Assembly (NCBI RefSeq): GCF_013377085.1
Contig: NZ_JACAAX010000014.1
Location: forward strand, 1 to 64,000
Source: Rhodoplanes sp.
GTDB taxonomy: Bacteria > Pseudomonadota > Alphaproteobacteria > Rhizobiales > Xanthobacteraceae
Reading direction: 5' to 3'
DNA length: 64,000 nt
The translations under genes and the position numbers were made by a program. Shown piece after piece: positions 17,411-37,819 of the stretch (positions are counted from its first letter, which is position 1; each line of letters begins with the position of its first letter). The notes beneath the pieces were generated by a model. It was not told where the DNA came from, made no database searches, and saw only the letters and a program-made list of their open reading frames with translations.

Positions 17411-17692
17411 GTCCCCGTGAAGGCGCTACGGGATGCACACAAGGCTTGCCATGCATGAGAGCGTCATGCGCGGGCTCGACCCGCGCATCCATCGATTTTC
17501 GCAAAAATGCTTTGTTCGCAGGATGATGGATCGCCGGGTCAAGCCCGGCGATGACGACGGTGGGGAAGGCGCTCTTTTTGCCGTACCACCAGATGGTCTC
17601 GACAAAACGAGATCTGTGCATCCCGTAGCGTGAAGGCGGGGACCCAGTGCGCTGGGCGTGGCCTCTGGATTCCCGCTTTCGCGGGAATGAGC
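17411..17692. repeat. Composite palindromic intergenic repeat (copy A region)
   Basis: The gap between the antiporter and the DUF3124 gene is filled by repeat sequence. A 15-bp inverted pair (cgctacgggatgcac at 17424-17438 and its complement at 17616-17630) encloses a 95-bp palindromic unit (17462-17556), described with its two sister copies below. To the right, attcccgc-tttc-gcgggaat (17669-17688) forms another perfect hairpin. Short frames here (MRGLDPRIH-like) are the typical spurious products of such alphaproteobacterial repeats. Confidence 0.8.
17462..17556. repeat. Dispersed palindromic element, copy A
   Basis: Two inverted half-sites: cgtcatgcgcgggctcgacc... ending atccatcg, a spacer of about 29 bases, then tgatggatcgccgggtcaag... 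ending atgacg. Each half itself contains a hairpin of cgggc/gcccg type. Related copies are at 20902-20994 and 42063-42150. Confidence 0.8.
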
Positions 17693-18425: not shown

Positions 18426-18475
18426 AGATGGTCGGAGCGGAGAGATTTGAACTCTCGACCCCCAGTCCCCCAGAC
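18426..18475 (-). repeat. Duplicate of the tRNA-Pro 3' end (attR-like)
   Basis: About 50 bases (gatggtcggagcgg... to ...cccagac) identical to the 3' half of the intact tRNA-Pro at 19646-19695. Identity stops abruptly after the 3' side of the anticodon loop region. Similarity continues weakly a few bases outward (ttcgaaagagatgg versus ttcgagaaggatgg). This is the usual product of site-specific integration into a tRNA 3' end. It marks the far edge of the 1.2-kb cassette. Confidence 0.85.
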
Positions 18476-19533: not shown

Positions 19534-19648
19534 GGCGCGAGCGCACCGGGCGCCTCGCCGATCCTGGCTCTCAGGGGCGGATTCATCTGTGGGGCCGGTC
19601 GCAGCGCCGCGGCCGGTGGAGCGGAGATCATTCGATTTTCGAGAAGGA

Positions 19649-19726
19649 TGGTCGGAGCGGAGAGATTTGAACTCTCGACCCCCAGTCCCCCAGACTGGTG
19701 CGCTAACCGGGCTGCGCTACGCTCCG
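19649..19726 (-). tRNA. tRNA-Pro (GGG)
   Basis: Complete cloverleaf on the minus strand: acceptor CGGAGCG paired with CGCTCCG, D-arm GCGC/GCGC, anticodon stem CCAGT/ACTGG with loop CTGGGGG (anticodon GGG), T-arm GAGAG-TTCAAAT-CTCTC, and encoded ACCA at the 3' end. The 3' half is duplicated 1.2 kb downstream at 18426-18475, marking it as an integration site. Confidence 0.96.
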
Positions 19727-20901: not shown

Positions 20902-20994
20902 CGTCATTGCCGGGCTTGACCCGGCAATCCATCGAACGTCGAAAGAAGCTTTTCTTTCAAGCGATGGATGCGCGGGTCGAGCCCGCGCATGACG
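20902..20994. repeat. Dispersed palindromic element, copy B
   Basis: Same two-half structure as copy A: cgtcattgccgggcttgacc... atccatcg, a spacer of about 27 bases, cgatggatgcgcgggtcgag... atgacg. Its right half encodes the last dozen residues and stop of the polymerase/ligase gene on the minus strand. Confidence 0.8.
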
Positions 20995-33740: not shown

Positions 33741-35693
33741 ATGATGTGGTGGACCTCGATCAGTGCCGGTTGGGCTCGCGTGAATGCCAGACTCCCGGTG
33801 AGGTGTCTGTGCCAGCCTGCGACGGCGCTCGGCCTCCTGACGATCGCGCTCTTGTGGGTGATCATCGGCTATCACCTCGGCCTGGAGCGCGACCAGTTGC
33901 AGGCGATGGCGTTTCAGAACACGCGCAACATCGCGCGCGTCGTCGAGGAGCATTTCGTCCGTTCGGTGGCCGAACCGGACCAGATCCTGCGGCTCGCCCG
34001 CGCGGCGTATCTGCTCGATCCGGCCGGCTTCGATCTCCGGGCCTTCGCGCACGGCGCGACGATGTCCGGCGGCGTGGCGCTGCAGCTCTCGCTGGTCGGC
34101 CCGGACGGCATGCTTCTCGCCACCAGCGGCCAGGCCTCCGGGCCCGTCGATCTGTCCGACCGGCGGCATGTCCGGGTTCACCTCGACGGCGACGACGACA
34201 CGCTGTTCGTCAGCGAGCCGGTGCTCGGGCGCGTCTCCGGCAAGCGGTCGATCCAGTTGTCGCGGCCGGTGCGCGACCGCGACGGCATCCTGCTCGGCGT
34301 CCTGGTCGCCTCGCTCGACGCCGAGTACTTTTCGCGCTTCTACCGCTCGATCGATCTCGGCGCCGGCGGCGCCATCGTGCTGGTCGGCACCGACGGAGTC
34401 GTGCGGGCCGGAGCCGGGGCAGGGACACCGTTGGTCGGCCGCTCGTTTCGCGAGTGGGCGACGCTGCGACGGCTCGACGAGGCTCCGAGCGGCTCGCTGG
34501 TCGTCCGCAGCCCGCGGGACGGTGTGACCCGCCTGGTCTCGTACCGGAAGGTCGACGGACTGCCGCTCGCCGTCTATGCGGCCGTGTCGACGGTCGAGGC
34601 CTTCGCCGACAACGCCTGGTACGTGAAAGTCTACTCGGTGATCGCCGCCGTCCTCACCCTGGTGATCCTGGCCGCGATCGCGTTGGCGGTGCGCCAGCGC
34701 CTGGCGCTGGAGCGCACGGCCGCGGCGCTGCTCGCCAGCGAGGCGGCGGCGCGCCGCAGCTCGCAGGAGCTCGCGGTCACGCTGCAGACCATCTCGCAGG
34801 GCATCGTCACCATCGATCGCGACGGCCGTATCGCGGTGTTCAACCGCCGGGCCGTCGAATTGCTCGGCGTGCCGGAGGCGTTTCTCGCCGAGCGGCCGCA
34901 TTTCTCCGAGGTGCTCGCCGAGATGCGCCGGCGCGGCGAGTTCGGCTCGGCCGGCGAGCTGGCGAACGCCGACCTGGTCGCGTTCGGGCACGCGGCCAGG
35001 CGCGATGGGGCCACCGCCATGTTCGAGCGCATCCGGACGAACGGCCAGACCATCGAGATCTGCTGCGTCTCCATGCCGGACGGCGGCATGGTGCGCACCT
35101 ACACGGACGTCACCGAGCGGCGCGCCAGCGAGCGGCGCATCGCCTACATGGCGCTGCACGATTCGCTGACCGGCCTGCCCAACCGTGCGATGTTCCAGGA
35201 CCACATGGAGGAGGCGCTGAAACGCCTGCACGAGCGCGGCGCCCGTTTCGCCGTGCTCAGCATCGATCTCGACCGCTTCAAGGAGGTCAACGACCTGCAC
35301 GGCCATCCGGTCGGCGACGAGCTGTTGCGCCGGGTGTCGGAGCGGCTGCGGAGCTGCCTGCGCGACGGCGACCTCGCGGCGCGGCTCGGCGGCGACGAGT
35401 TCGCCGTGGTGGCCACCCGCACGGATGTCAACGGTGAGCTCGACGCGATGGTGCGCGGCCTCTTGCAGTCGGTCGCCGAACCCTACCGGATCGACGGCCG
35501 CACCGTCGAGATCGGCGCCAGCATCGGCATCGCGCTGGCCCCCGAGGACGGCGACGGCCTGGAGACGCTGCTGCGCAAGGCCGACCAGGCCATGTACCGG
35601 GTCAAGGCCGGCGGCCGCAACGGCCTGTGCTGGGCCGGCCGGGCGATGCGCTCCTTCGGGGGCGCGCGCGGCGCGCGCGACGACGCTGCCTGA
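33741..35693 (+). CDS. Membrane diguanylate cyclase (Cache-PAS-GGDEF)
   Basis: A 650-residue signalling protein making cyclic di-GMP. Membrane helix about 28-47, a periplasmic dCache-like sensor (about 55-290, ending with the IPLAVYAAV-type motif), a second helix (VIAAVLTLVILAAIALAV), a PAS domain (about 345-460) and a GGDEF domain. The active site is intact (GGDEF at 550-554), and the inhibitory RxxD (RDGD) sits five residues before it, so product inhibition is expected. No EAL domain. ATG 33741 (the first of two adjacent ATGs). The divergent neighbour is the caspase-fold gene. Confidence 0.94.
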   Translation: MMWWTSISAGWARVNARLPVRCLCQPATALGLLTIALLWVIIGYHLGLERDQLQAMAFQNTRNIARVVEEHFVRSVAEPDQILRLARAAYLLDPAGFDLRAFAHGATMSGGVALQLSLVGPDGMLLATSGQASGPVDLSDRRHVRVHLDGDDDTLFVSEPVLGRVSGKRSIQLSRPVRDRDGILLGVLVASLDAEYFSRFYRSIDLGAGGAIVLVGTDGVVRAGAGAGTPLVGRSFREWATLRRLDEAPSGSLVVRSPRDGVTRLVSYRKVDGLPLAVYAAVSTVEAFADNAWYVKVYSVIAAVLTLVILAAIALAVRQRLALERTAAALLASEAAARRSSQELAVTLQTISQGIVTIDRDGRIAVFNRRAVELLGVPEAFLAERPHFSEVLAEMRRRGEFGSAGELANADLVAFGHAARRDGATAMFERIRTNGQTIEICCVSMPDGGMVRTYTDVTERRASERRIAYMALHDSLTGLPNRAMFQDHMEEALKRLHERGARFAVLSIDLDRFKEVNDLHGHPVGDELLRRVSERLRSCLRDGDLAARLGGDEFAVVATRTDVNGELDAMVRGLLQSVAEPYRIDGRTVEIGASIGIALAPEDGDGLETLLRKADQAMYRVKAGGRNGLCWAGRAMRSFGGARGARDDAA

Positions 35694-35694
35694 T

Positions 35695-35725
35695 CCTCAC
35701 CCCGCCAGCGCCTGTTCCAGGTCGG
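35695..35725. repeat. Duplicate of the metY 3' end (left boundary of TA cassette)
   Basis: 31 bases (cctcaccccgccagcgcctg...) identical except for one base to 36537-36567, which is the 3' end of metY. On the minus strand this copy still reads DLEQALAG-stop. It lies directly after the diguanylate cyclase stop. Confidence 0.85.
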
Positions 35726-35793
35726 TTACCGGTGGCTCTCTCGGGCCAGAGCGACCGCGCATCGTGTCTCTTCGCGTCGTCCGAGCGGCCTGT

Positions 35794-35799
35794 TATGAT
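35794..35799 (+). promoter_or_regulatory. Candidate -10 element for a leaderless TA transcript
   Basis: TATGAT at 35794-35799, with a weak -35 (TTCGCG, 35771-35776) at 17 bases. Transcription would begin at about 35806, the A of the antitoxin ATG. No Shine-Dalgarno sequence precedes that ATG, consistent with a leaderless message. Inference. Confidence 0.35.
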
Positions 35800-35805
35800 G
35801 CCGCC

Positions 35806-36027
35806 ATGAAGCACACGCGGATCGAGATCAACCCGGAGATCATGGGCGGCAAGCCTGTGGTTCGGGGAACGCGTATTCCGGTCGAGACCATCCTCCGGAA
35901 GCTCGGTGCCGGGATGACGGCCGACGCGGTCATGGCGGATCATCCGCGCCTGACGGCGGACGACATTCGAGCCGCTCAGGCGTTTGCCGCCGACTATCTG
36001 GCCGACGAAGACGTCGCCTACGGTTGA
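35806..36027 (+). CDS. DUF433 antitoxin (VapB-like)
   Basis: A 73-residue DUF433 protein: RIEINPEIMGGKPVVRGTRI, PVETILRKLGAGMTADAVMA, DHPRLTADDIRAAQAFAADY. The GGKPVVRGTRIPV motif is diagnostic. DUF433 proteins pair with PIN-like DUF5615 toxins, and that gene follows after six bases. The N-terminal half is a winged-helix-like DNA-binding fold, so autorepression is likely. ATG 35806; the frame is open upstream without protein character. The module lies in an insert bounded by copies of the metY 3' end. Confidence 0.9.
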   Translation: MKHTRIEINPEIMGGKPVVRGTRIPVETILRKLGAGMTADAVMADHPRLTADDIRAAQAFAADYLADEDVAYG

Positions 36028-36033
36028 GCGGCC

Positions 36034-36405
36034 ATGCGATGGCTCGCCGACGAATGCGTGGATGCCTCGCTCATTGTCTTCCTGCGCCAGTCTGGTCATG
36101 ACGTTCTCGAGGTCGCCGAGCATGTGCCGGGTGCGACCGACCGGGAGGTCGTCAGGCTGGCACAGTCCGAGCAACGATTGCTGCTGACCGAGGACAAGGA
36201 TTTCGGCGACCTCGTCTTCCGCCGCGCGAACGCCGTGCCCGGTCTCGTGTTGCTGCGGATCGACCCGGAACGGCGCGCCACCAAGGCGGCACGCGTCCGT
36301 GCGGCCTTGGACTTGCACGGGGAGAAGCTGTTCGGCCGCTACACCGTCATCGAGGATGCCAGGATTAGAAGTCGTCCGTTGCGGCCCATCGGCGGAGCCG
36401 ATTGA
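36034..36405 (+). CDS. DUF5615 PIN-like toxin
   Basis: A 123-residue PIN-like (Mut7-C related) nuclease-fold protein. Acidic residues typical of the fold are present: RWLADECVDASLIVFLRQSG (Asp6, Glu7, Asp10) and LLLTEDKDFGDLVFRR (the acidic EDKDFGD cluster). It is the probable RNase partner of the DUF433 antitoxin directly upstream. The C-terminus (IEDARIRSRPLRPIGGAD) is ordinary. ATG 36034. Target RNA unknown. Confidence 0.9.
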   Translation: MRWLADECVDASLIVFLRQSGHDVLEVAEHVPGATDREVVRLAQSEQRLLLTEDKDFGDLVFRRANAVPGLVLLRIDPERRATKAARVRAALDLHGEKLFGRYTVIEDARIRSRPLRPIGGAD

Positions 36406-36518
36406 ACTGCTGGTGACGGACTCGGTCCGGTGCCGATCGCGATCTCGATCGGCGCTGCGCAGGTCCAAGTCGTCCGGGCCGGCGCCTGGCGAACCAGCCC
36501 CCGTCCGGTTTGATCTTT

Positions 36519-36535
36519 GGACGGCCGTGCCGTCC
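36519..36535. terminator. Hairpin beyond the metY stop
   Basis: ggacggc-cgt-gccgtcc, a 7-bp GC-rich stem (36519-36535), three bases downstream of the metY stop (minus strand). A T-run is present only on the other side, so efficiency as an intrinsic terminator is doubtful. It falls inside the TA cassette, so it may have arrived with it. Confidence 0.35.
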
Positions 36536-36536
36536 G

Positions 36537-36567
36537 CCTCACCCCGCCAGCGCCTGCTCCAGGTCGG
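36537..36567. repeat. metY 3' end, second copy of the 31-bp direct repeat
   Basis: The native copy: last codons and stop of metY. It matches 35695-35725 at 30 of 31 positions (T715 versus C557 in the last three digits of position). The two copies enclose 811 bases carrying the DUF433/DUF5615 pair. Confidence 0.85.
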
Positions 36568-37819
36568 CGATGATGTCGGCCTTGTCCTCGATGCCGATCG
36601 ACAGGCGGACCACGTCGGGGCCGGCGCCGGCCTGCACCTTCTGGGCGTCGGAGAGCTGCTTGTGGGTGGTCGAGGCCGGGTGGATGATCAGCGAGCGGGT
36701 GTCGCCGATATTGGCGAGGTGGGAGAACAGCTTCACGTTGGAGACGAGCTTGACGCCCTCGTCGTAGCCGCCCTCGAGGCCGAACGTGAACACCGCGCCG
36801 GCACCCTTCGGCACGTATTTCTTCGCGAGGTTGTGATAGCGGTCGCCCGGCAGGCCCGGATAGCTCACCCAGGCGACGCGCGGATGCGCCGACAGCCACT
36901 CGGCCACCGCCAGCGCGTTGTCGCAATGGCGCTGCATGCGCAGCGGCAGCGTTTCGATGCCGGTGAGGATCAGGAAGGCGTTGAACGGCGACAGCGCCGG
37001 GCCGAGGTCGCGCAGGCCCAGCACCCGGCAGGCGATCGCGAAGGCGAAGTTGCCGAAGGTCTCGTGCAGGACGATGCCGTTGTACTCGGGGCGCGGTTCG
37101 CACAGCATCGGATAGCGGCGCTCGCGCGACCAGTTGAAGGTGCCGCCGTCGACGATGATGCCGCCGATCGAGTTGCCGTGGCCGCCCAGGAACTTGGTCA
37201 GCGAATGCACGATGATGTCGGCGCCGTGCTCGAAGGGGCGGCACAGATAGGGCGTCGCCAGCGTGTTGTCGACGATCAGCGGCACGCCGGCCCGCTTGGC
37301 GATCTGGCTGATCGCCGCGATGTCCGTGATCACGCCGCCCGGATTGGCGATCGACTCGATGAAGATCGCCTTGGTCTTGGGCGACACGGCGCGCTCGAAG
37401 CTTTGGAGGTCGTCCGGGTCGGCCCACACGACGGTCCAGCCGAAATTCTTGAACGAGTGGTTGAACTGATTGATCGACCCGCCATAGAGCTTCTTCGAGG
37501 CGACGAACTCGTCGCCCGGCGTCAGCAGCGCGTGCATGATCAGCAGTTGCGCGGCGTGGCCGGAGGCGACCGCGAGCGCCGCGGTGCCGCCCTCGAGCGC
37601 GGCGACGCGCTCCTCCAGCACGGCGTTGGTCGGGTTGCCGATGCGCGTGTAGATGTTGCCGAACGCCTGCAGGCCGAACAGCGAGGCGGCGTGGTCGACG
37701 CTCTCGAACACGTAGGAGGTGGTCTGGTAGATCGGCGTCGCCCGCGCCCCGGTGGTCGGGTCGGGCTGGGCGCCGGCATGGATGGCGAGCGTGGAGAAGC
37801 CGGGCTGGCGGTCGGTCAT
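36539..37819 (-). CDS. metY: O-acetylhomoserine sulfhydrylase (PLP enzyme)
   Basis: A 426-residue Cys/Met-metabolism PLP enzyme that makes homocysteine from O-acetylhomoserine and sulfide. Signatures: [59 protein letters not shown] and the PLP lysine in [11 protein letters not shown] (Lys209). The length and the insertion [19 protein letters not shown] point to MetY rather than MetZ or MetB. ATG 37819 starts [16 protein letters not shown]. Its last nine codons and stop are repeated 0.84 kb further on, on the far side of a TA pair. Confidence 0.95.

Follow-up and report, generated by a model that had tools for sequence, protein, structure and literature searches.

Toxin–antitoxin cassettes between copies of gene 3′ ends: a DUF433/DUF5615 pair at metY in Rhodoplanes and a layout that recurs at other protein genes

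When an element integrates at the 3′ end of a gene, the usual outcome is an intact gene accompanied by a displaced copy of its own 3′ end. For R-M systems, insertion with long target duplication is reportedly known from work by Nobusato in 2000 and by Furuta in 2010. The passages cited here on R-M systems describe insertion with long and variable target duplications, on the order of 100 bp (PMC3874152, PMC3031569), and the section that deals with such duplications does not say the same of toxin–antitoxin (TA) systems. Elements of the ICE/IME/CIME types are described, in the part of the source used here, as integrated in the 3′ ends of fda, rpsI and rpmG (PMC7563491). Homology-facilitated illegitimate recombination is reported, in the corresponding part of another source, for three competent species and for E. 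coli (PMC3240628). Finally, the relevant passage of a survey of TA systems assigns DUF433 (COG2442) as the antitoxin of PIN-associated TA pairs and describes these pairs as mobile (Makarova, 2009; PMC2701414). How bare TA pairs, which are called mobile and carry no transposition gene, travel between chromosomal sites is an open question.

The window analysed here comprises the first 64 kb (64,000 nucleotides) of contig C6 in the 6.48-Mb genome of a Rhodoplanes species (G000), and contains a DUF433/DUF5615 pair between two copies of a 31-bp sequence (Table 1). The first-pass annotation had described this direct repeat, and comparison of the copies bears it out: they are identical at 30/31 positions, with a single T versus C mismatch, and lie 842 bp apart from start to start. 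Its reading of the left copy also holds, as both copies encode DLEQALAG-stop on the minus strand. The right copy had been taken for the last nine codons and stop of metY; it is indeed the end of that gene, but consists of two bases of the preceding codon, the last eight codons, the stop and two bases beyond. The 3′ end of metY is duplicated and the gene itself is left intact. Under a simple base model, about 4e-7 such repeat pairs would be expected by chance in the whole window. Identity breaks off abruptly around the 31 bp (14/60 in the left 60 bp, 11/60 in the right 60 bp), so the left copy is not continued as a longer degraded metY, the continuation that the annotation had named as fatal to its reading. 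A tandem duplication of metY is ruled out by the same flanks, and a dispersed repeat by a search of the genome with up to 3 mismatches, which returned these two copies only.

The enclosed genes are small and adjacent, as a DUF433/DUF5615 type II (VapBC-like) TA pair requires, and their Pfam matches lie far above the curated cut-offs; the DUF5615 protein also matches PIN_10, below the cut-off of that model. Judged by length, 811 bp with two genes leave no room for an integrase, and the locus belongs with long, variable direct repeats around a module without transposase or integrase, a classification in which the absence of a recombinase is likewise judged by length. The stop of the diguanylate cyclase lies 1 base short of the left repeat copy. 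At the position of a possible −10-like element just upstream of DUF433, the alignment has CTGTTAGAAT in G002 and CTGCTAGAAT in G004, two genomes of the same genus, and the 38 bp upstream of the DUF433 start are identical at 26/38 positions between G000 and G002. Promoter and terminator consensus scans of the cassette were negative, with no sigma-70 site.

Table 1. Features of the metY 3′ end and its cassette, with positions in the window.
Feature	Position	Strand	Size	Evidence or remark
Diguanylate cyclase, dCache-PAS-GGDEF, intact	33741..35693	+		Pfam
Left repeat copy, metY 3′-end fragment (DLEQALAG-stop)	35695..35725	-	31 bp	Between diguanylate cyclase and TA pair; sequence comparison
Cassette between the copies, TA pair with spacers	35726..36536	+	811 bp	
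Possible -10-like element, CTGTTATGAT, just upstream of DUF433	35790..35799	+		Alignment; inference
DUF433 protein, predicted antitoxin	35806..36027	+	73 aa	Pfam PF04255, E 1.3e-23
DUF5615 protein, predicted PIN-like toxin	36034..36405	+	123 aa	Pfam PF18480, E 9.3e-24
Right repeat copy, true metY 3′ end with stop and two bases beyond	36537..36567	-	31 bp	Sequence comparison
metY (O-acetylhomoserine aminocarboxypropyltransferase), intact, convergent with TA pair	36539..37819	-		NF004650, E 1.5e-259

Elsewhere in the window, a 49-bp perfect direct repeat (18427-18475 and 19647-19695) is the 3′ part of tRNA-Pro(ggg) (19649-19726). Its copies surround genes for a RelE-type toxin (PF06296) and for an HTH protein, and the order is once more gene, TA, 3′ fragment. 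G002 has a 55-bp match to the far copy of this repeat, about 3.6 kb from its tRNA-Pro match. The tRNA-Pro cassette region is flanked by two inverted pairs about 3.4 kb apart (17462-17556 and 20902-20994), one of 33 bp and perfect, the other of 32 bp with 2 mismatches. On contig C23 of G000, 180 kb contain several occurrences of a dispersed repeat (GCGAGCCCGGAATCCATA... and relatives) that looks intergenic, near 138896, 139517 and 174490.

The metY site was compared in a genus sample of six genomes including G000. Five of these contain metY (the sixth, G005, is 58% complete), and the metY end is readable in four, as the contig of G003 stops 49 bp past metY. The gene order is caspase gene, diguanylate cyclase, DUF433/DUF5615 and metY in G002; caspase gene, DUF433/DUF5615 and metY in G004; and caspase gene, diguanylate cyclase, TPR gene, HicA/HicB and metY in G001. 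A caspase gene (PF00656) is also present in the window. The DUF433/DUF5615 pair at metY is common to three of the four readable genomes (G000, G002 and G004) and the repeat is present in one, the left copy being absent from G001, G002 and G004 with a best other match of 19/31. Since G002 and G004 carry a homologous pair in the same place without the left copy, the repeat, contrary to what had been supposed, does not date from the initial entry of the pair at metY. In R. tepidamans (G001), HicA/HicB and the large TPR gene replace DUF433/DUF5615 at the same metY 3′ end (L202, 11395-12005), which indicates that this spot exchanges TA pairs.

In a wider set of metY loci, none of 80 (the best 80 of 567) had a second copy of its own metY end at a threshold of at least 24/31, within flanks that cover between 68 and about 6500 bp past metY and beyond which larger islands are possible. 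The search for the same repeat-bounded unit at other metY genes, which the first-pass annotation had proposed, was negative in these 80 loci. The same count, together with the absence of the left copy from the three congeners, gives no support to a repeat that is ancestral to the metY family, the other outcome under which that annotation would have withdrawn its reading. Its proposed empty site was not found in relatives either: the 18-bp junction sequence occurs only in G000 loci among 354 loci, a set from which same-species genomes are absent, and G001 has HicAB at its metY end.

Divergence between the congeners allows the repeat to be placed in time. Between G000 and G002, dS is 0.61 for the diguanylate cyclase, 0.64 for DUF433, 1.31 for DUF5615 and 0.23 for metY; the DUF433 antitoxins are 92% identical, and the DUF5615 value, which is near saturation, compares with 0.77 between G002 and G004. 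A neutral left copy as old as the G000–G002 split would be expected to show about 9-12 differences in 31 bp, and 1 is seen (P 9e-4 to 6e-5), which suggests that the repeat is probably younger than this split unless gene conversion preserved it. In the rpoB tree, G001 groups with G002 (support 0.999) and the placement of G000 and G004 is weak; the metY tree puts G000 beside G001 and G002 (0.987). Topology tests do not reject a single clade of the three metY pairs, or a grouping of G000 with G002, for either gene (AU at least 0.17), and reject a grouping of G002 with G004 for DUF433 only (AU 0.013). A foreign replacement of the G000 toxin is what dS points to, but the topology tests do not. The closest relative of this toxin in a family sample of 198 genomes is that of G002 at 67%, followed by one at 66%; at E 1e-30, G000 stood alone among the 397 genomes sampled at order level and the 398 at phylum level, neither of which included the congeners and both of which were scored for limited candidates per genome. 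Windows of 80 bp along metY show no clear breakpoint of an imported tract.

The layout is not confined to metY. In a first set of 27 TA loci, near-exact direct repeats surround 4 of the 24 complete pairs. The full DUF5615 set consists of 107 loci (27 + 36 + 44, leaving out a repeated G000 row from the second group of 37 and, from the third group of 49, 3 rows already in the set and 2 partial or contig-end matches), 103 of them with enough flank. Direct repeats with a score of at least 20 around the pair were found at 12/103 loci, in a test keyed to toxin position in which the antitoxin was not confirmed locus by locus; all 12 right-hand copies start within 164 bp of the toxin end. For Gp49/HigB, a second TA family, the count is 8/64, the set being those loci with enough flank among 66 of 95 listed matches, largely the top-ranked ones. 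Cores placed at random with the same geometry had such repeats in 85/5000 cases in 464 kb of G000 and in 14/5000 in about 0.94 Mb of metY loci. Against the less favourable of these controls, which resample limited stretches, mostly from genomes other than those of the TA loci, and which represent random cores as opposed to non-TA accessory genes, Fisher P is 4e-7 for DUF5615 and 2e-5 for Gp49. A protein-level repeat test was positive at 6/101 DUF5615 loci versus 3/500 and 4/500 controls; the metY and PIN cases fall outside it because their repeats are too short.

In 8/12 DUF5615 and 5/8 Gp49 matches, what is repeated is the 3′ end of a gene or ORF. Around DUF5615, these are the ends of metY (31 bp), a FAD-linked oxidase (186 bp), a histidine kinase (84 bp), a RACo-type protein (about 121 bp), an alcohol dehydrogenase (75 bp), a polyprenyl synthetase (41 bp), a PIN protein (26 bp, with similarity that runs past the stop) and a 269-aa ORF without Pfam match (45 bp). 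Around Gp49, they are those of a LacI-type regulator (151 bp), two TctC-type proteins (82 and 79 bp), an HTH-S24 protein (118 bp) and a histidine kinase with receiver domain (37 bp, ending 35 nt before the stop). The target genes are mostly unrelated. Along the gene, the order is gene, TA cassette and 3′ fragment at all 13 loci, with the TA pair directed either with or against the gene, and at 12/13 no more than 14 nt separate the end of the repeat from the stop codon. At several loci (e.g. L129, L133, L211, L214) the gene start lies beyond the available stretch, and intact there refers to an intact 3′ part. Gene-end repeats in this layout occur at 13/167 TA loci, about one in thirteen, in the two families sampled.

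The gene-end repeats measure 26-186 bp and the bracketed cassettes 547-1038 bp, which is too short for an integrase beside the pair. Cassettes of this length, at target genes that are mostly unrelated, weaken the analogy with tRNA-targeting elements drawn in the first-pass annotation. Its idea of an insertion stands in part: the duplicated end looks like an insertion scar and the layout recurs at other protein genes, but a repeat at metY that records the first entry of the pair is not supported. The remaining repeats, in 4/12 DUF5615 (L121, L234, L244, L308) and 3/8 Gp49 matches (L326, L329, L346), lie away from a clear gene end and were counted as repeat matches, not as gene ends; that of L346 is near the end of a 367-aa ORF without Pfam match, and L326 was rejected as a gene end as it had been flagged solely through an ORF antisense to the toxin. 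At L133 (G105:C29, toxin 1501-1629 in pair orientation), the DUF5615 gene looks shortened by an internal deletion yet is bracketed by the repeat, so that a decayed pair still shows the scar.

The differences between the copies bear on how the duplication arose. A duplicated target would be dead from birth, and amino-acid changes would therefore be expected in the fragment. Counted codon by codon over 12 gene-end loci, the copies differ by 39 synonymous and 13 nonsynonymous changes; the locus of the 269-aa ORF has zero differences and stands outside this count. A model of one dead and one working copy (omega 0.1) predicts 39-44% synonymous differences (P 1e-7 to 5e-6, with a worst P of 1e-5 over the settings tried). 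Two working alleles at the same omega predict 78-81% (P 0.36 and 0.17), and at omega 0.05 they predict 88-90%, which fits poorly (P at most 0.01). If, naively, half of the differences are assigned to the working copy and all of these are taken as synonymous, 64% is expected (P 0.06). The synonymous excess is uneven between loci (9:7 at L269, 1:1 at L296, 0:1 at L129), and amounts to 30 synonymous to 6 nonsynonymous differences without L269, the largest contributor. At metY the one difference is synonymous, and with a single difference a target duplication and a donor-derived end cannot be told apart at this locus alone. Taken over the whole set, the copies resemble alleles of two working genes more than a target duplication that has drifted. 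This resemblance to the ends of two separately evolving working genes suggests that one gene end probably came with the TA pair. Homologous docking at a gene end, whether of a linear piece with an illegitimate joint at its far side or of a circle closed on that end, fits the pattern of the copies, and plain target duplication fits it less well.

The reading that we favour, with a probability of roughly 0.5, is that the TA pair came joined to the end of a donor gene and that the host's own gene end stayed behind as a scar. An ancestor of G000 without the pair would have had an empty site, with the stops of the diguanylate cyclase and metY 3 bp apart. Incoming DNA from a related lineage would have carried a metY 3′ end followed by the TA pair; lineages like G002 and G004, with the pair behind metY, are plausible donors. 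Through homologous recombination inside metY, the host gene would have acquired the donor end together with the TA pair. The cassette's far side would have been attached 26 bp before the host metY stop, either with no long homology or through a circle closed on the gene end. The host would be left with a metY that is intact and possibly chimeric and with the TA pair, and the last 31 bp of its own gene would persist next to the diguanylate cyclase as a scar. A process of this kind may account for the layout of gene, TA pair and 3′ fragment at the 12 other loci. Donor, recombination route and empty host site are all parts that we infer, as no donor, recombination junction or empty site was seen at any locus. 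More tentatively, at somewhat less than an even chance, unrelated TA families may in general spread without integrase or transposase, joined to the 3′ ends of ordinary genes and carried by general recombination to the same gene in a new host, which would stay intact with a donor-derived end while the original end persists past the cassette as a scar.

Alternatively, insertion of a bare cassette in the G000 lineage could have duplicated 31 bp of target at the metY end, the pairs of G002 and G004 then being separate or older insertions whose repeats have decayed. We consider this unlikely, although it has much in common with the data: the layout, the lack of room for an integrase, gene-end repeats of 26-186 bp and the low divergence of the 31-bp repeat would all follow, and the passages cited on R-M systems provide a precedent with long, variable duplications of about 100 bp. 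It sits badly with the ratio of 39:13, in which synonymous differences exceed the expectation for a dead fragment (the weaker model gives P 0.06), and with repeats that end within 14 nt of the stop in 12/13 loci and are not spread past it. Repeated targeting would also be needed to account for the homologous pair that two congeners have at this site. In another reading, the pair was inherited vertically at metY and a local rearrangement, by tandem duplication of the TA pair and metY end followed by deletion, or by a templated repair insertion, placed 31 bp of metY ahead of it in this lineage. G000, G002 and G004 share the flanks and the TA orientation, a single clade of metY pairs is not rejected by the topology tests, the G000 and G002 antitoxins (92% identical, dS 0.64) have diverged about as much as the diguanylate cyclase (0.61), and the identity of 26/38 extends ahead of the antitoxin start. 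Even so, we regard this explanation as rather improbable, as it leaves the recurrence of the layout around TA pairs at other genes unexplained, and the toxin dS of 1.31 between G000 and G002, versus 0.77 between G002 and G004, exceeds the vertical expectation, with the reservation that these values are near saturation.

We attach very little probability to the cassette being the remnant of an integrase-dependent (cis-mobilizable) element whose attachment site was the metY 3′ end. An intact gene with a displaced 3′ end is the classic layout of such integration, and decayed elements without recombination genes are described, in the source part used here, at the 3′ ends of protein genes. Against this stand the 811 bp, which are too few to hold an integrase in addition to the pair, and the count of 0/80 metY loci (the best 80 of 567) with a second metY end, a count compatible with larger islands further out. 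Unlike what a single integrase would produce, one TA family is bracketed by several unrelated gene ends.

If TA pairs do arrive joined to a donor gene end, as we favour, a displaced gene end past a cassette would be a readable scar that bounds the age of the insertion and names the docking gene, and its synonymous differences can tell whether the gene end came with the cassette. With such scars, the way in which the pairs move could be tested both in genomes already available and in laboratory strains. They also call for caution in annotation, since a short piece of a gene end next to a TA pair may represent a scar and not a gene. The interest lies in the recurrence and the synonymous signature above metY itself, which is one example of a recurrent layout.

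The first-pass annotation knew of no described system in which a bare TA pair inserts at the 3′ end of a metabolic gene. This was too strong, as R-M target duplications and elements at the ends of fda, rpsI and rpmG are described in the passages cited above; TA pairs bracketed by gene ends, for their part, were not described in the papers surveyed by title and start of the abstract, a result that is no proof of novelty. As in the PIN-associated TA pairs of the cited survey, a DUF433 antitoxin lies here beside a predicted PIN-like toxin, but this toxin is DUF5615, and repeat-bracketed cassettes are absent from the passage that describes those pairs. With the ICE/IME/CIME elements, as far as the cited part describes them, the loci share a gene followed by cargo and, as is usual for integration at gene ends, a displaced 3′ end of the same gene; they differ in having no integrase, in cassettes of about 0.5-1 kb and in several unrelated target genes per TA family. 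Homology-facilitated illegitimate recombination, as presented in the source part cited, combines a homologous joint at one end with an illegitimate one at the other and can add DNA beside a gene, which is what we propose here; that process was observed in the laboratory, whereas ours is a proposal read from scars. The long target duplications of R-M systems, according to the sections cited, likewise concern a transposase-free, addictive module of two genes between direct repeats of tens to hundreds of bp. Here, in contrast, the modules are TA pairs, the gene-end repeats are the 3′ ends of genes and stop near the stop codon, and the differences between copies over the set are mainly synonymous, a pattern suggestive of two alleles and not of a duplicated target.
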